64,000 nt of DNA from Caenorhabditis elegans (taxonomy: Eukaryota; Nematoda; Chromadorea; Rhabditida; Rhabditidae), in NCBI RefSeq assembly GCF_000002985.6, contig NC_003284.9:15748001-15812000 (forward strand), read 5' to 3'. Below, piece after piece: positions 31 through 9,264 of this stretch. The notes below the pieces were generated by a model that did not search any database, was not told the origin of the DNA, and saw nothing but the letters and a program-made list of their open reading frames with translations. The translations under genes and the position numbers were made by a program. Position 1 is the first letter of the stretch. Every line of letters starts with the position of its first letter.

Positions 31-101
31 GGCCGAATGGTCTAGTGGTTTGATTCTCGCTTTGGGTGCGACAAGTCCCGGTTCAATCCCCGGTTCGGCC
101 C
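31..101 (+). tRNA. tRNA-Pro(TGG)-like, probably a pseudogene
   Basis: Matches the intact tRNA-Pro(TGG) copies elsewhere in the window (3420-3491, 48855-48926), including anticodon loop TTTGGGT. It is 71 nt instead of 72. One G is missing from the T stem, the closing pair of the anticodon stem is C-C, and the D loop has a T for A. These defects suggest a decayed copy. Confidence 0.75.
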
Positions 102-316
102 ATTCTTTTGCTTTGGAATAGTAATTTCTGGGTCCCGCGAAACGACAAAGGTATTCTAATAGTAAGCTCGCGTTGCACACCGTGGGGTTTGTTCCGTATT
201 TACCTTTCATTTTGTGACAAAAGCATATGAAAACGCATTTGAAGGCAAAACATAAGACATAAAACATTTCACACGAAAACTCACAATTTTCAAATTTTCA
301 TCAGACTAAAATAATT

Positions 317-380
317 GGCCGAACCGGGGATTGAACCCGGGACCTCTCGCACCCAAAGCGAGAATCATACCACAAAACCA
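317..380 (-). pseudogene. tRNA-Pro(TGG), 3' part, split by a transposon
   Basis: On the minus strand this holds the acceptor 3' strand, T arm, anticodon arm and most of the D arm of tRNA-Pro(TGG). The 5' end is missing here and is found 2.87 kb away at 3251-3259. Between the two lies an element with perfect 14-bp terminal inverted repeats. Apart from two substitutions in the D-arm region, the halves rejoin to the tRNA sequence seen in the intact copies. Confidence 0.88.
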
Positions 381-639
381 CACAGGTAAAGCGCGTCGGC
401 AACAGGTTAACGTCAGGTTTGTGTCAGGTTATTTTAGATTCCGTATTAGGCCCATATATACCGGGAATACTGCTTTTTGTTATTAAATGTTGATACAAAA
501 AGAGAAACATTGCCAAAAATTTTGTTTATTGAACATGAAAAATGAAAAAATAAATCTGACAAAAGGGAAAAAAACATAAATATTATTTAATATTTCGGCT
601 TAGTGTGAGCCTCGTTTCGATTCCCGATTCCTAGGATCC

Positions 640-1235
640 ATCATTAGCAGCCACTTGGTCGAATTGTTGATTCTGTGACTCTGAGCAGCATCAGATGGGC
701 GGCAACGTAGAAAATGAGCATCTATCGGCGACAGCTCGAGGAGTTTGACATCATTCCGCATCTTTCTGTAAAAAATTAACGTTAAAGTTGAGAGAAATCG
801 CTAGTTTTTTTCAAAGGCGCTAAAAATTATGATTTTAAAACTCACTTTGTGAGGTTAATTCTCTTTGCAAAGCATGATCCGAGCCAAGATGGTGTGGGCT
901 TAGCGACGACAAATTCGAACTTTCCAATCAAGAATCGCTCCATCAAAAGAATGTCGGGTACTCGATTGGTGGGAAGATTTCCACGTATTTTCTAAAATTT
1001 TTTAAATTTACATTACATTGAAATATTTTATTATGAACATACACTGTGATCATCATCGACGTCGATCCAACCAGTTGAAATCGCATTTTATCAATATTGA
1101 ACATTGGGAGAGCAAGATCCACGAGGCTCACCGCGAGATGAAATGTTTCCTTTTGGAAATTGTCGCCACCGCCGGTAATTCTCTCCTCCAGCCATTTCCG
1201 TGCCATCCCACTCGTTCGCGTCAACGTCGAAAATG
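640..1235 (-). pseudogene. Captured A-type cyclin fragment (cyclin-box exons with introns)
   Basis: Three exons are readable on the minus strand. Exon a (1235-1043) encodes a cyclin-box start including FQKETFHLAVSLVD and MRFQLVGSTSMM. A 51-nt intron has a GTATGT donor and TTTTAG acceptor. Exon b (991-846) gives KYVEIFPP, then after a frame change RVPDILLMERFLIGKFEFVV and GSCFAKRINLTK. Exon c (765 downwards) gives KMRNDVKLLELSPIDAHFL and RPSD. The order matches cyclin A across its cyclin fold. The frame change after EIFPP looks like an internal deletion. Retained introns indicate capture of genomic DNA rather than of a cDNA. A possible first exon near 1400 (minus) reads MATTLRNNDTAPSLA before a GT. 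Most likely derived from the worm cya-1 family; this is from memory of the family. Confidence 0.82.
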
Positions 1236-2610
1236 CTGAAACACGAATAAATATACGGAAAATAATTATTTTTGCCGAAAAATCAAAGAATTGATGAAGA
1301 AAACAAAGAAAAATCGAAGAAAAAGAAAAATAAATGGTGAAAAAAGTAATTTCGAAAATGAGGAGGATTTACGCTAAAGAGGGCGCGGTATCGTTATTTC
1401 GGAGTGTCGTTGCCATCTGAGTTTGGAGCTTCTTTTGAAATGCTTTCTCGCTTTTATTTGAAGTCGTAAAAAGCAAAAAAACTAACGCTAAGTCGGAAAT
1501 GTGATTTGTGCTTGAAAACAATAAAAATTAATAAAAAAATTTAGTTTAGAAAAAATTTAACTAAAATTTTTCCACTGATATCAAAAATTTCATAAGGGTC
1601 CCCCCTATGAAAAAAATGTTTATAAATTTTTTTTCCAAAAATCCTGAATACTGCTTGAATGTGTGGGAAATGTATATTTTAGTATTTTCCAAAGTTTTCA
1701 TGGCTCAATCACACTCCTGGGCAAAAAAAATACAACAGTCAATTTGGCTTGTTCATAGAAAGTCAATACTTCCAAAATGGTCTAGCACCGTTGGTAGCGG
1801 AAATATGAAAAACTTGTCAAGTAAAAAGTTGTTAGGAATAAAGTGATTGGCAAATTAATCATTGTAACTTTTTGCCATCTCGGATATCTGAGCAGATAGG
1901 AGCACCTAATTATGAGTCAAATATCACTGATTTTGACTGATGATATCTCGGTACTCTGCAAAAAAAACAAGAAACTATCAAACGTAAAACATGGTCCATA
2001 ACAAAATTAACAAGTTTGTAGTTAATAATTTTTTGATATCTTGCTTGCCCGATGGGGGTCATGGTACCAAAGAACTGGCATAGCATGTAGATTAATTAGA
2101 GTAATTGAGTAAGGAAAATCTCTATTCAACTACAAAAATTGTTTCAACACATAATTTTACGTTTTTTCTTTGTTCGATAAAAACAGTTTTAACCATTCAT
2201 TATTTTGTGTCAGTCAAAAAACTTTGCCTGACAGTAACCTGTCAGTAGACATTTGCCGGCTCTTAGCCTGCATTTCTGGAAATAATATTTTCAGAAATTT
2301 TTTACTTTTCGAAATTTTCCCGAAAACTTATAAAATCGTACTGAAAAAATGTCGTCTCTGCCGTTCAAATGCCCAGAACACGATTTCTGGTGAAAAATTA
2401 TGGTAAGTTTTCACCAGCAATTGTGATATGAGCATTTATATTGATGTAAAAGAGTAAACCGGTTGTGTTCTACAAGATTAAAGCAGTTTTGGAAAAAATA
2501 GGAAAAAACATTTTTTTTTGGAGTCAGAAAAACTTTGCCTGACAGTAACCTGCCAGTTACCATTTGCCGGCTCTTAACCTGCCATTAACCTGACACTCGC
2601 CTGACGCGGC

Positions 2611-3240
2611 TCATGATCCGGTGTGGTAACCCCGAAACTGTATTTCTGGAAATATTTTTTTCAGAAATTTACACGAATGAACATAAAACTCATTTTTATG
2701 AACTTTCATTCAGTTTCTGAAACTTCCATTTTCACTCATCTGACCCATCACCTGACACTTACTCGCCGTTCACCTGACGCGCTTTTCTCAAAATTCGTGC
2801 GAAAATTACTAAGCTGACACTAACCTGCTCTTAGTCCGACAGCGACTTTTAGCCTGATACTAAGCTGACACTAACCTGCTGGCGGCTTTCAACCTGCCAT
2901 TAAGCTGCCACTAACCTGCCGCGGTTCATGATCCTGTGTGGTAAACCCGAAACTGTATTTTTGGAAATTGTTTTTTTTAGAAATTTACACGAATGAACAT
3001 AAAACTCATTTTTATGAACTTTCACTCAGTTTCTGAAACTTTTATTTTCACTCATCTGACCCATCACCTGACACTTACTCGCCGTTCACCTGACGCGCTT
3101 TTCTGAAAATTTGAGCGAAAATCACTAAGCTGACACTAACCTGCTCTTAGCCTGACAGCGACTTTTAGCCTGATACTAAGCTGACACTAACCTGCTGGCG
3201 GCTTTTAACCTGCCATTCAGCTGCCACTAACCTGTGGCGC
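2611..3240. repeat. 315-bp tandem duplication inside the TIR element
   Basis: The segment beginning TCATGATCC at 2611 recurs from 2926, a period of 315 bp with few differences. Both copies contain TCACCTGACACTTACTCGCC and end in CTGACACTAACCTGC words. It is the subterminal repeat zone of the 381-3250 element. Confidence 0.85.
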
Positions 3241-3250
3241 TTTACCTGTG

Positions 3251-3259
3251 CATTCGGCC
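3251..3259 (-). pseudogene. 5' end of the split tRNA-Pro
   Basis: CATTCGGCC is the complement of the tRNA-Pro 5' acceptor strand GGCCGAATG. It directly abuts the right terminal inverted repeat of the transposon and completes the gene fragment at 317-380. Confidence 0.85.
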
Positions 3260-3419
3260 ATGCTTTTGAACACAATCACGAAATTTCTCATTCAAATCAA
3301 GTTTCAATTTGCGACTATCTCGTGTTTCTTTTCCGTGTTTACTGTTGAACAACATAATGGACTAAAGCAGATAGCTGAATGATGAAATCATGGCCAAATC
3401 TGCGAGGATGTCTTAGCAT

Positions 3420-3491
3420 GGCCGAATGGTCTAGTGGTATGATTCTCGCTTTGGGTGCGAGAGGTCCCGGGTTCAATCCCCGGTTCGGCCC
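3420..3491 (+). tRNA. tRNA-Pro(TGG)
   Basis: A 72-nt cloverleaf. The acceptor pairs GGCCGAA with TTCGGCC, the anticodon stem pairs CTCGC with GCGAG around TTTGGGT, and the T arm is CCGGG-TTCAATC-CCCGG. The discriminator base is C. It is identical to the copies near 48.6-48.9 kb and appears functional. It lies 160 bp from, and was divergent to, the broken copy. Confidence 0.95.
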
Positions 3492-3563
3492 ATTCATTTT
3501 ACGCGACCGGGAACAACACTATTACATGAGCCTACTTACAGCTTGCAAGTTGATAAATTTCAG

Positions 3564-4138
3564 ATAACTGTATTTCAAAATAAATATTCTATTATTTTGC
3601 CGTTATCCTGTATGTTTGTCAATATTGGAATAATTTTACATCTCCGCTTCAAACGCGAAGGCACATACGAAATGATCAAGAAAGTGTTCAGTAAACATAA
3701 GACGATAACTCCATTCGCAGTACCACTTCAAAACACAACTCTTTCAAAACTTCAAGCCAGGCGTGATCTCATCATGATGCGGCAAACCGTTTCAGTGGCG
3801 GTCTACCTCTCAATTTATGAACTAGGAGCATTATTAATCAGAGTTTTTCCGGTAACACGTTTAATTTAAAACATGAGTTTAAAAAAATATTATCATTTTT
3901 GCAGACATTCTACGCAGGCCTTCCGGATTTGGTGCATAAAAGTTATTTTTACATCCGCTACGAGTCAATTCCACCCATGACTTTTTTCGTTTACTATTTG
4001 GAAACCGGAAGCACGCGTCGAATGCTTAAACGATTTTTGAAATTCGATGGATCAAACTTTGCGTCAGCAGCGAATCAAACAGTTGTACCAGTTGGTGCAA
4101 AACAACAGACGAGGGCCGTCATAAACCCACATTCTTAA
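3564..4138 (+). CDS. Serpentine chemoreceptor-like gene, 3' exons only
   Basis: Two exons: 3564-3851 (after TTTCAG; donor GTAACA) and 3905-4138 (after TTTGCAG), joined in phase 0 and ending in TAA. The translation has a membrane segment (YSIILPLSCMFVNIGIIL), a basic loop, a second segment (MRQTVSVAVYLSIYELGALL), then TFYAGLPDLVH and a short basic tail. This fits the C-terminal half of a nematode 7TM chemoreceptor; I cannot place it in a specific sr family. No start codon or upstream membrane exons are visible. The sequence before it is tRNA-Pro and the TIR element, so it is either a 5'-truncated relic or has a distant 5' part. AATAAA follows near 4236. Confidence 0.5.
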
Positions 4139-4467
4139 GCAAGTATAAAAACTCATAATTTTTATAGAAATTATCATGTCTTTAACTGAATTGAGATGCT
4201 TGTTTTGTACTGTTTTAAAAAATTGCAATGACTAAATAAAATTGAACGTCGTAATTTTTGAGCTAACAAAATGTTTATTGAATCAATGTAACTGAAACAA
4301 ACAAAATGTCATAGATGTTGGAAGTAAATAAATAATTAATTAATTAATTAATTAGGCAACAATTGAATTGTAAAAAATGAATGAAAAAGTGTGAAATTGG
4401 TTGACCTATTTGAGATTTTTGATAGAGGATTTTGTACAACGGTTCTGTCCACAATTATTAATAGGAT
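4139..4467. other. Convergent 3' intergenic region
   Basis: AT-rich gap between the ends of the serpentine-like gene (+) and the warthog gene (-). It contains a short (TTAA)n-like run near 4332-4353. No gene seen. Confidence 0.7.
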
Positions 4468-7400
4468 CTACATCAACTTTGATGGAATTACAATATCCAA
4501 CACAGCCATAACTCCGTTAAGACCGTAACCAATGTTATCCTCATTTGTGCTATCCTCAACAGTCCAGAAGTAGTTGCGGATTTGTGACTTCCATCGGAGA
4601 ACATTCTGTAATAGTAATTTGAAATTTACCGTAAAATAGGGAACTCTACTAACAGTGAAGAAAGTGTTTTGAAGGCTGTAATTGTCGGTTTCGGAGTGGC
4701 AAGATGCATGAATACGGTCTACCAGGAGATGGCCACGTGACGTCATTGGCGAGTAGATTCCAGTTTTTTGCACAATATTGATGTCAAGAACTTTTACGCG
4801 TTGATACATTTGGGACTTCTGAAAATTTTGCTGTTCAGTTACAAAATGTTTTCATATATCGAAAATCTGATATTACCTTGCGGTGTGCAATGTAGAAACA
4901 GTCTCCAATGTTTACTCTCTCAGCTGGTACTGGGTTTGCATTTATATTCTCATCCTCAGAATAGGGCACAGAACATTGAGTTACAAAGACCAAATGCTTC
5001 TCGGTCAATGAGAATGTCTCTCCGTTGTCAAGTGTGAATCTGTAATTTGTATTGTTAAAACGGAATGCTCAAACCAAAGGTATTACTCTACAAAATCTGC
5101 AACTTGTTTTGGATCACGATGAAGCCAGTATTGAACCGGGATAAATGTTACTTGAGAGCCATTCTTGTCGAGAGCCTGAACCCAGTCTCCCACTGCGAGC
5201 TCATCCATACGTTTGAATCCTCCATTATAAACATTGACCATAGCGTCTCCAGGGAAGCAATAATACAATTCTGAAATGTGGGTTGGGAATTATTATTAAG
5301 GTGTAAAAACTTACGTAATCCAGAAGGTGCGAATCCCATTGGAGCATATCCAGCTGGTGCAGCAGGCTGGAAAAATAAATGAAGTTCGGAAAATTATTAT
5401 ATTAATTATGAAAAAAATAGTTTGCTGATTATATTGGTTAATGGAATGAGAGAGCGAAGGGTGATAATAATACAATTCATGAACTTATTTTATTGTAACA
5501 CAATTTTTTAAATATTAAAGGTGGATTAGCGCCAGTGGGGAAATTGTTAAAAACCACTCCTTTGGTCCTAAAATGACCAAATATCATGATAAAACATTTC
5601 AAAACATTTTTGAAAATTTTTAATTTAATGTCAAAAAGTGGCAATTACTCAGTTTTTCCACTCATAATTTTGGAAGTCGACCGGAAAAAAAAATTTTTTT
5701 CGACTTTTTCATGTTCTAATTTTGTTTGAATTCATTGTATTGAAACATTGTAGGGGTCGAAGCATGCAACATTTCTTTAAATTTGCTCTAAAGCTCGTAT
5801 TTTTCAAAATGTTGACAATTTGCCAACACTTTGACCGGAAATTATGAAAAATTTTTTGGAGTGTTTTATTATGACATTTGGTTGTTTTGGATCATTATAA
5901 GTGGATTTAGACAAAATCCCCACTGGCGCTACTTCACCTTTAAGAGTGGAATTGTATGATTACACTTATAATGATCCAAAACGACCAAAAAATAATTTTC
6001 AGATTTTTCATAATTTCCTGTCAAGGACTTGACAAATGCCAGAATTTTGGAAAATATGAGCTTTTCAGGAAATACAAAGCAATGTCGCAAGTCCGACCCC
6101 TACAATGTTTTAATACAAATAATTAAAACAAAATTAGAGTATAGAAAAATGTAGGGGAAAAAATTATTTTTTGGTCGACTTCCAAAATTCCGAGTGGGAA
6201 AAGCTGAGTAATTGTTACCTTTTGGCAATAGATAAAACATTTTTTAAAAAATTTTAAAAGGTTTATTATGATATTCGGTCATTTTGATAGTTTTTACATT
6301 TTCCCCACTGGCGCTACTCCACCTTTAATATTAAGAAGTATAAATGAAATTAATAAATTATTAAGTTATTTAATTAATTAGATTATTAAATTAACAGAAC
6401 TGAAAAATAAAAATGGAAAGCTAGTTATCCAAAAAAAAACAGTATGCTTTTCTTACCACTGGATTTTGGACCACTTGAGGTTGGAATGCCTGTGGCTGGA
6501 ATCCCTGCGGCTGAAATCCTTGTGGCTGGAATCCCCCCTGTGGCTGGAAACCTTGTGGTTGAACAAATCCTCCTTGCTGTCCTGGTGGTGGTGGTGGTTG
6601 AGGGTTTGTTTCTTGAACAAATCCTTCTTGAGCGACAATTTCCTCAATAATCACTTCTTGTCCATTCTGAACACCTTGTGGGACCACAAGCTGTCCAGTC
6701 TCAACTGGGGTCTCCACATCTACAGTTGGAGCTTGGTGAACGACAAATCGATGCCCGTTGACGTGGCGAATCGTGTTCTCAGAGTTTAAGATTTCAGCTG
6801 AAATTTAGAGTGTTTTTTAAAACAAGTCAATTTTTTCGTTTTGACTACAATTCTGTTGTTTTGTTTCACCCCAATATTACTTACGGACTGATCGATCAAC
6901 TTTCTGAAGATCCAAGCATGAGAATCTTTTAATATTAACTTCGTAAAAGATTTCTCCTTCGGAATCAATCTTCTTCTCTACATTGCTAATATAGTCGAAT
7001 GCATAAGGCTTATTATCTGCGAATATCTCTCCTCCAACAACAATTTGTCCGCCAGACACAGTTGCCACGCCTCGATCTATCGATGCACGCAATGGAGCGT
7101 AGGTGCAGCACTTGTAGGCAACACTGAAGCGAAATAGGTTGCAAAATTTTCAGAACTTAAAGGTGGAGTAGCGCCAGTGGGGATTTTGTCTAAAGGCACT
7201 TATAATGATCCAAAACAACCTAATATCATAATAAAAAACTCCAAAAATTTTTAGATTTTTCATAATTTCTGGTCAAAGTTTTGGAAAATTGCCAAAATTT
7301 TGAAAAATACGAGCTTTTGAGAAAATTTGAAGAAATACGGTATTTTTTGACCCCTACAATGTTTTAATACAAATAATTTGAACAAAATTAAAACATAAAA

Positions 7401-9264
7401 CATGTCGAAAAAAATTTGTTTTTTAGTCTACTTCCAAAATTATGAGTAATTGCCACTTGTTGACAGTTAAATCAAAGGATTAAAGGACGATCCGTTCTTC
7501 AAGTGCTATGCACTGCGGACCTGGGATTCAGGTACACTGCCTGGTGGTGATCTTTCTGGGCTGTAATTTAAGCCACGTCCTAGCCGGGGACTGTGGCCGA
7601 TAATCCAGTCGTGGATTGCTCCACTTCCCAATAGAGGCTGGGTGAACCTAGGGGTGAGGCCGGACTTGAACTCGTGACCTCCAGACTGCTAGCGGCCACC
7701 ACTACCGACTGAGCTATCTGCCCAATTTTTTGAAAAGTTTTATCATGATATTTGGTCATTTTGGGACCAAAGGAGTGGTTTTTAACAATTTCCCCACTGG
7801 CGCTACTCCACCTTTAAGTCTGGTCTAGTGCTTACATTTTGGTGGTAGATGCATTCATGACTGGTGCAATTCCTCCAACCCATTGGTCCTCTGGGTTGCA
7901 TGATAATGATTGGAATTCTTGTTCACAGCTCTGAAATATTTCATTAATAAAATAACTTTTTCATCTTTTTACTGATCTCCTTTTTTCTTTGATTCTACAT
8001 ATGGGTCATAAAAACCTGCTATGATGTTTCATTCATTTTCTCATCATTTTTCAATTAGCTTTTCCCTTTCATTCTCTATCACTCACTGCTTGCTGCTGCG
8101 CGTAAACTCTCGGGTCGGCCGCATCAAATGTATGAATAGCCAAAGGATCATCACGTAGGAAGCCGTCCGATTGTTGATCGATTCGGAAGAATTTGGCGTT
8201 GGTTGGAAGTTGGTGGCCATTTGAATGCCATCCAAAACAAGTTGGTCTTGCGCATCCGAGAATCGGTTGACCAGATGAAAGCACCTAGAATAAGTAGGGT
8301 AATTTGTCATGTTAAGTATGCTTTGGCGGAATGTTTATAACTATTATGTGTAAACGATTGCAGAAAGTTGAATGTTTTATAAGTTTTAAAAATGTCAAAA
8401 TCGGTATGGTGTGTATTATACCCCGCCATTTTAAAAATTAATGTTTTAACCTATAAAAAAAACGTGTGAAAATTCAGGCTTAGGAAAACGCCATTCCTCA
8501 GCCTAACAAGTTAAATGGGTATCACGTTAAATTTAAGTACTACTATGGTGATAAACTTTCTATAATGAATATCTTATAATAATAAGGGATAATTTAATTC
8601 ATTTTACTACAAGTGATTAATAATTATGAATCACAATTAACACTTCATACACACGTTTCATTATATAACTCTAAGCTTTGTAAATTGAGTCGCGTTTGTG
8701 ACATTAGGCGTAGTACACTATTTAATGAAAAATATGCAAAAATGTTTCATATTGGTTCAAATTACTTGTACTTGTACTGTACTGTACTTGAACTGTACTG
8801 TCAACTACTTATAAAATTACTTGGGTACTTGTGAAGTATACCTGGACTAAAAATATACGCCATTTTTTAAAGTGAACATCCGTAACCCTTTTTGTCCATA
8901 TTAGGCTCAGGATTAATGTTTTTTGAAGCTTGAAAGTGCAAGTTAGTTTTATATTATTTATCATTTTTTGAAATAAATAAATGGTATACTACAATAGTAC
9001 CAAAATTTCAAAAAAAAAAACGGCTAACTTTAGCTAAAAATAGTATTAGAGAAATAAACCTAGAACCCGTACTCTGTTTTTCTATGTAGTTTAGGCCAAA
9101 ATAACATTTAGCGGGTGTTTTTGTAAAAGCTTTGATTATTTTTATTACATTTCTTTTTCTCTTACCTCTAAACTATATGGAATTGTTGAATCTCCGCACT
9201 CCGATCCATATGTGAATTTATAGCTAGAAGACAACAAAACTAGTGCAAGTAAAGAAAACCTCAT
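4468..9264 (-). CDS. Warthog-family hedgehog-related protein (Wart + Hint/Hog), 557 aa
   Basis: Ten exons join in frame: 9264-9166, 8284-8087, 7930-7836, 7123-6885, 6797-6457, 5366-5315, 5270-5087, 5039-4877, 4818-4654 and 4605-4468 (1674 nt, 557 aa). The ATG follows TTCAG|ATACA, a likely trans-splice site. Residues 1-20 are a signal peptide (MRFSLLALVLLSSSYKFTYG). The Cys-rich Wart domain follows (ECGDSTIPYS, CARPTCFGWHSNGHQLP, YKCCTYAPL). A linker around residues 220-324 is rich in Gln/Pro with GFQPQ repeats. The Hint/Hog domain starts at about Cys346 (YYCFPGDAMVNVYNGG) and keeps SLTEKHLVFV and the SPMTSRGHLLVDRIHASCHS motif, so autoprocessing at that Cys is expected as in other Hint proteins. 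In worms these secreted proteins act in cuticle and epidermis. The family is clear. The wrt number is not settled from sequence; wrt-4 and wrt-6 are my candidates. Confidence 0.92.
4606..4653 (-). other. 48-nt in-frame intron of the warthog gene
   Basis: GTTAGT...TTACAG within the Hog C-terminal region. It is a multiple of three with no stop, so retention would add 16 residues without a frameshift. I treat it as an intron because the spliced product fits the Hog pattern and both splice sites are good. Confidence 0.65.
5518..5943. repeat. Foldback element, AAAGGTGG...CCACCTTT family
   Basis: Ends are AAAGGTGGATTAGCGCCAGT and its near complement; flanking TTAA-like bases. The interior repeats the words AAAACTTTT, GGTCGACTT and CCCCTACAATG in inverted order. 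It lies in the warthog intron between exons 5 and 6. Other copies: 5938-6328 (partial), 7159-7817, 17373-17765 and a truncated one at 30408. Confidence 0.85.
5938..6328. repeat. Second, partial copy of the AAAGGTGG foldback
   Basis: Directly follows the previous element and shares CACCTTTAA at the junction. It ends TGGCGCTACTCCACCTTTAA. Its left inverted end is incomplete. Confidence 0.75.
7159..7817. repeat. AAAGGTGG foldback interrupted by a SINE
   Basis: Full terminal inverted repeats (AAAGGTGGAGTAGCGCCAGT and its complement) in the warthog intron between exons 3 and 4. It is about 250 bp longer than its relatives because of the insertion at 7477-7724. Confidence 0.85.
7477..7724 (-). mobile_element. 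tRNA-derived SINE, copy 1
   Basis: On the minus strand the unit begins GGGCAGATAGCTCAGTCGGT, giving an A box (TAGCTCAGTCGG). A B box-like GAGTTCAAGTCCG follows about 45 nt later. A tRNA-unrelated body of about 170 nt comes next, ending ...ATCGTCCTTTAATCC. A second copy with about 85% visible identity lies at 56928-57192 in the same orientation. Two copies sharing both ends, with Pol III boxes at one end, is the architecture of a SINE. Confidence 0.8.

Follow-up and report, generated by a model that had tools for sequence, protein, structure and literature searches.

Inverted-repeat DNA transposons that carry pieces of host genes already have a published precedent in C. elegans, so this kind of capture is known: Turmoil-1 holds an exon-intron-exon piece of rsp-2 together with a piece of cpg-3 (PMC2572040). 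The element described here resembles Turmoil-1 in its host species, in its inverted repeats, in the capture of host gene sequence at the DNA level and in the decay of the captured pieces (PMC2572040). It differs in that Turmoil-1 has its own Harbinger transposase, inverted repeats of 760 bp and pieces of rsp-2 and cpg-3; furthermore, the account of Turmoil-1 tabulates nine copies or fragments and, in the passages on the element, describes no tRNA targeting (PMC2572040).

Similarly, four Pack-TIRs are mentioned for the worm reference (PMC8277862). As in the multicopy animal Pack-TIRs of that source, a host gene fragment has moved here with an inverted-repeat element and lies between different target duplications. 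On the other hand, the multicopy cases presented there are four from reference genomes (three frog, one alligator) and one family in fly populations, compared with 15 C. elegans loci here (PMC8277862). The original prediction of a Pack-type capture is supported, and Turmoil-1 and the four worm Pack-TIRs show that such captures are not new to nematodes.

Helitrons have no inverted repeats, make no duplication and insert between A and T; a Helitron was ruled out here by the inverted repeats and the duplications. The CACTA/CMC superfamily has ends beginning with CAC and 2–3 bp duplications, and the CAC ends and 2–3 bp duplications of our element match it; as these features are short, the match is suggestive only. 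The plant Pack-CACTA elements are likewise non-autonomous, carry gene pieces and have ends starting with CAC, whereas their ends read CACTACAA compared with CACAGGTAAA here, and the 5-nt duplications stated for rice and maize CACTA compare with 2–3 bp here (PMC8903248).

Dada elements are likewise DNA transposons with insertions within tRNA genes, frequently at the A box (nt 8–13), but they make duplications of 6–7 bp (PMC8869645), compared with 2–3 bp here. Their families are named, though not strictly, for the main RNA gene used (PMC8869645), whereas our elements occupy 11 isotypes at 11 intact sites. Insertion in multicopy small RNA genes was seen here as well, but a 6–7 bp duplication was not (0–3 bp in 26 of 26 elements). 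Dada was consequently ruled out by duplication length, and the 2–3 bp duplications indicate an element distinct from it.

We consider it highly likely that a non-autonomous terminal inverted repeat (TIR) transposon captured part of cya-1 at the DNA level, most likely once, and then spread mostly into tRNA genes, with the cyclin piece as a passenger and not as a working cyclin. Two things are unusual here: the number of copies, for an animal, and a tRNA target combined with short duplications. This is an animal gene capture with many dispersed copies, not a single relic; the repetition at 15 loci and the tRNA sites are both absent from the original prediction.

An Intron-Retaining Cyclin Fragment Inside an Inverted-Repeat Element

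The window, the whole stretch of 64,000 bp that was analysed, is C6:15748001–15812000 in a genome of 100,286,401 bp and 7 contigs; contig C6 we take to be C. elegans chromosome X. The element had been predicted at 381–3250, and these limits were borne out by a 14-bp terminal inverted repeat, with CACAGGTAAAGCGC at 381 (381–394, + strand) and its reverse complement ending at 3250 (3237–3250, − strand), and by the 2-bp target site duplication CA at 379–380 and 3251–3252. Longer forms of the repeat pattern recur across the genome, giving 71 repeat-end matches (CACAGGTAAASCGCG, 45; CACAGGTAAAGCGCCA, 26), compared with none for the same patterns reversed. Within the element, CCTGACACTAACCTG-like subterminal repeats occupy 2217–3242 (+), and a stretch at 1217–2109 (+) is common to the cyclin-less loci L049–L052, with 83–86% identity in the longest alignment of each.

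Window 301–3500 was used as a BLASTN query against 20 stretches, among them 7 kb around the cyclin locus L034 (C3:9107554–9108067), which we take from its position to be cya-1. Window 690–1163 and this locus are 79.8% identical across an alignment of 516 columns (E = 1e-133), and the match runs through the introns. A strong match to a cyclin A locus had been expected, and neither a missing match nor one lacking the introns was observed. These results confirm that window 690–1163 is an intron-retaining copy of part of an A-type cyclin gene. The predicted extent of 640–1430 was too wide, as 1217–1430 belongs to the stretch common to L049–L052.

The captured fragment is antisense to the element as oriented in the window (690–1163, − strand), and its alignment to the parent resolved three exon pieces and two introns, with exon numbers taken from our own model of the parent gene. 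All lie on the − strand: an exon 3 piece with the cyclin box, its 5' part gone (1043–1163); a retained intron, GTATGT...TTTTAG (992–1042); exon 4 (846–991); a second retained intron, GTGAGT...TTACAG (766–845); and a piece from the start of exon 5 (690–765), with the capture boundary at 690. Both introns have GT...AG ends and phases identical to those of the parent, and the three consecutive cyclin exons in correct phase are thus as predicted. The damage exceeds the single deletion or frameshift that had been proposed: exon 4 has a 37-bp frameshift deletion, exon 5 has a 3-bp deletion, and upstream exon parts that are present in longer copies are gone. The frame at 943–1368 (−) still matched Pfam Cyclin_N with 26.9 bits (cut-off 23).

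The parent itself scored 87 bits with Cyclin_N and 83 bits with Cyclin_C in the Pfam profile search, and its frame across the three exons is open and cyclin-like. It lies elsewhere in the genome and not beside the element, as in Pack-type capture: in the 7 kb around cya-1, the cyclin piece was the sole match of at least 50 bp to window 301–3500. Turmoil-1 is similar, with no element sequence beside its parent cpg-3 in the published description (PMC2572040).

No transposase was detected. Window 381–3260 contains no frame above 141 aa, and the 141-aa frame holds the cyclin match; in ten stretches scanned, the largest non-cyclin frame outside an insertion in the copy L046 was 129 aa. Ten frames, two of them from the window, had no transposase match in Pfam; among them were six non-cyclin frames outside the L046 insertion, one of which gave a below-cut-off match to a family of unknown function. 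A search with PF02992, the CACTA transposase, found no match in this genome or in the control genomes and, with the controls silent as well, carries no weight either way. As in Pack-type elements, a gene fragment lies between TIRs with flanking duplications, and the element has no transposase of its own.

A gene fragment in new places would also result if cya-1 had been retrocopied, or duplicated as an ordinary segment, and a transposon had reached the new copy later; this is the sole point in favour of such an origin. A processed retrocopy is ruled out because the introns are kept, and at loci whose flanks differ the fragment has one and the same placement relative to the element, between its inverted repeats; we therefore regard this origin as extremely improbable. 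The retained introns point to capture at the DNA level, as in Pack-type elements, and capture inside an inverted-repeat transposon, as originally proposed, is the best reading of a parent match that contains them.

Fifteen Copies with Shared Lesions

We found cyclin-derived sequence of the element at no fewer than 15 loci, the window and L035–L048, which are spread over all six large contigs. Because 40 of 41 candidates were scored, the count is a lower bound. At the 15 loci, to the extent that each survives, the cyclin piece has the same relation to the element (in L048, the left end and the beginning of the piece are all that remain), and the GT and AG splice ends are kept wherever the stretch survives. 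Relative to L041, a fuller copy of 3212 bp, the window copy is short of ~100 bp inside the left end and of ~320 bp of the cyclin part. With L048 left out, the copies are 83.6–98.8% identical to one another and 81.3–85.8% identical to cya-1. Across the 15 copies, identity to cya-1 is 82.5–87.4% in exons and 77.1–88.2% in introns, where L048 contributes 17 intron bases only.

Several lesions are common to the copies. A 3-bp deletion (parent 3887–3889) and the absence of parent 3250–3332 occur in all 15, the latter as a separate 83-bp gap in seven (L035–L039, L041 and L046) and inside larger gaps in eight. Thirteen copies have exon-4 sequence on both sides, and every one of them carries a deletion in exon 4 at a related position, measuring 37 bp in seven copies, 32 bp in three (one of which lacks 2 bp more) and 80 bp in three. 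In L047, 105 bp are missing across the exon-4 start, and L048 has no exon 4. Stops were found at parent 3232 in six copies, including L047, the deepest copy, and at parent 3160 in seven. Parent 2963–3126 is kept in L047 alone. In a midpoint-rooted tree without L048, cya-1 is set apart and L047 branches next; cya-1 is a single row, so that this grouping rests on the midpoint rooting, and 3 of 12 inner branches are well supported. The shared lesions suggest that the fragment was most likely captured a single time and was already a pseudogene when it spread, and together with the stops they point to a piece broken before the spread.

One observation counts against a passenger. The 14 copies compared, L048 not among them, differ from cya-1 by 0.102–0.205 at codon position 1, by 0.070–0.130 at position 2 and by 0.179–0.257 at position 3, so that positions 1 and 2 differ less than position 3; intron differences in the same copies were 0.140–0.256. 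This bias, in a comparison of the copies with cya-1 alone, would fit constraint acting on cya-1 while the copies drift freely.

Could the captured piece instead be a source of small RNAs or antisense transcripts acting on cya-1, with the element kept or spread for that reason? The window copy has 12 exon 21-mers in common with cya-1 (longest exact stretch, 31 nt), and the 15 copies have 0–45 (longest exact stretch, 18–42 nt), which at the level of sequence would permit cross-silencing of cya-1. On the other hand, the copies are full of lesions and show no evident constraint of their own, and one of the 15, L040, has no exon 21-mer in common with cya-1. We therefore think such a role improbable, and slightly more so the specific variant in which copies lodged in RNA polymerase III genes undergo transcription and give rise to small RNAs against cya-1.

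For the passenger that we favour, the captured segment would run from the end of exon 1 to the start of exon 5 of cya-1, about 1.07 kb of the parent with its introns. The capture probably proceeded by template switching while DNA within the element was being repaired or replicated, a route that has been proposed for multicopy Pack-TIRs (PMC8277862). The frame of the cyclin piece would have been lost early, and the element would then have spread, presumably by a transposase acting in trans. The window copy, lodged in a tRNA-Pro gene, would have been shortened further by deletions of its own.

A pre-capture form was not seen among the cyclin-less relatives compared. The closest of them, L096 with the ends L084/L085 (C5:20331491–20333665), lacks the whole cyclin part and looks like a deletion derivative of the cyclin element, of which it is a sibling. 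It lies in a tRNA-like site.

Relation to the Annotated Cyclin CYA-2

Could one of the copies correspond to an annotated cyclin gene? Two A-type cyclins, CYA-1 (ZK507.6) and CYA-2 (F59H6.7), are listed in PMC1482691, the latter as a predicted CDK partner. Our Pfam profile search found 23 Cyclin_N matches in the genome. By position, these are presumably other cyclin genes and copies of this element, and we place F59H6 at C2, 2.02 Mb. By elimination, CYA-2 is thus probably one of the transposon copies, most likely L046 (C2, 2.02 Mb).

The name CYA-2 might suggest that the element carries a diverged but working cyclin, and the 53.4-bit Cyclin_N match of L046, together with the listing of CYA-2 as a predicted CDK partner (PMC1482691), would agree with this. 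However, L046 is broken by frameshifts, two stops and a 3.7-kb insertion, and none of the five Cyclin_C matches found genome-wide at E ≤ 0.001 lies at a copy. Furthermore, according to PMC1482691, RNAi screens indicate that embryos need all of the A- and B-type cyclins that it names except CYA-2. A working cyclin is consequently very hard to credit.

The L046 insertion (3733–7440) splits the cyclin piece and contains frames of up to 186 aa, two of which were run against Pfam with no match. A title by Kreutzer et al. from 1995, cited in PMC1482691, speaks of a "cyclin A multigene family", and transposon copies may be behind this expression. The passenger reading offers an account of both this family, whose extra members would be transposon passengers, and the reported dispensability of CYA-2 in embryos.

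tRNA Genes as Insertion Sites

Many of the element flanks are, by sequence, parts of tRNA genes. In the window, the element divides a tRNA-Pro(TGG) gene, recognised by ARAGORN in the joined flanks, with the 3' part at 315–380 (−) and about 8 nt of the 5' part at 3253–3260 (−); it lies next to tRNA-Pro genes at 31–101 and 3420–3491. To evaluate the target sites, the flanks of 26 two-ended elements were joined with one copy of the duplication and submitted to ARAGORN at default settings; the right end of L047, where the full repeat is missing, was set by alignment. The results show a tRNA across or at the junction in 11 of 26 joins, compared with 34 of 2600 random 240-mers, whereas the 52 single flanks gave no tRNA. 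The 11 intact joined tRNAs represent 11 isotypes (Pro, Asn, Arg, Thr, Leu, Ile, Ser, Ala, Val, Gly and Phe) and are cut at nt 8–24 in nine cases, at nt 42 in one and at nt 1 in one. Seven of the 13 two-ended cyclin copies lie inside these ARAGORN-accepted tRNAs. With the relaxed threshold (-ps75), 18 of 26 joins were accepted, yet so were 661 of 2600 background pieces; since relaxing also raises the background, only the default run was counted as evidence.

Similarly, a paired A/B-box score of at least 22 was reached by 21 of 26 joins (each with empirical p < 0.02), 10 of the 13 two-ended cyclin copies among them, compared with 117 of 4000 window pieces; the background of intact tRNAs and A/B boxes in random pieces was about 1–3%. 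The junction of these 21 lies at nt 1–2 in three and just outside the tRNA-like stretch in L035/L056. A 27th two-ended element (L057 with its L046 neighbour), outside the set of 26, scored 16, below the threshold, and makes this 21 of 27. When left flanks were joined to the right flank of another element, 374 of 1009 such joins also scored at least 22; the box test alone is thus no proof of each join, and the high scores fit flanks that are tRNA halves. One result is against the association: 20 single-ended flank pieces compared with Rfam gave nothing at E ≤ 1 (a set without L048 and L051, and with L057, whose partner end was recognised later), half tRNAs not being easily recognised. Identical flank ends were 2 bp in 20 of the 26 elements, 3 bp in four and shorter in two. 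The association of the elements with tRNA genes is strong.

Could this association reflect the survival of harmless insertions rather than targeting? tRNA genes are multicopy, so that insertions there may persist. Five of the 26 joins miss the box threshold, among them three of the 13 two-ended cyclin copies (L037, L044 and L046), which have no clear tRNA signal, and the outside junction of L035/L056 also agrees with survival. On the other hand, the paired boxes in 21 of 26 joined sites and the cuts at nt 8–24 in nine of 11 intact tRNAs argue against it. Furthermore, tRNA genes make up far less DNA than intergenic and intronic sequence, so that survival alone would not be expected to gather insertions in them. 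We consequently hold survival without targeting to be unlikely.

Under targeting, the insertions would occur with 2–3 bp duplications, mostly in the 5' half of tRNA genes, and would depend on recognition of the genes or of proteins bound at the A box. We lean towards the view that C. elegans contains a DNA transposon lineage with inverted repeats, distinct from Dada, by which a tRNA gene of almost any isotype is recognised close to the A box. One branch of this lineage would have become a shuttle that carried a fragment of a cell-cycle gene to 15 loci, and tRNA genes would serve the lineage as both refuge and landing pad. In the open-licence literature searched, we found no account of a C. elegans DNA transposon that targets tRNA genes or of cyclin capture by a transposon. 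If this targeting is true, a DNA transposon system directed at tRNA genes exists in an animal amenable to genetics, where one could ask directly how a transposase finds polymerase III genes.

Some further features of the sites and relatives were observed. The tRNA-Pro-like sequence at window 31–101, which adjoins the interrupted gene, has mismatches relative to 3420–3491 and is possibly a decaying gene. The flanks of L035 and L044, as well as L066, L068 and L082/L083, lie in or beside an apparent dispersed tRNA-like repeat (near CATCCCAGTTTGAGGTGTCTCCCGCATGGCCGAGTGGTTAG). Ends of the form CACAGGTAAA[GC]CGC also occur without a cyclin match, at L049, L052, L053, L086/L087, L088/L089, L092/L093, L097 and L098, and cyclin-less elements with such ends were likewise found by ARAGORN in tRNA genes (Ala, Val, Gly and Phe). 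L049, L052, L053, L097 and L098 each have ~100 bp or more in common with L041. In the cyclin-less L097, the internal inverted repeats at 1641–3189 are nearly perfect, with arms of 476 nt that are 97% identical.
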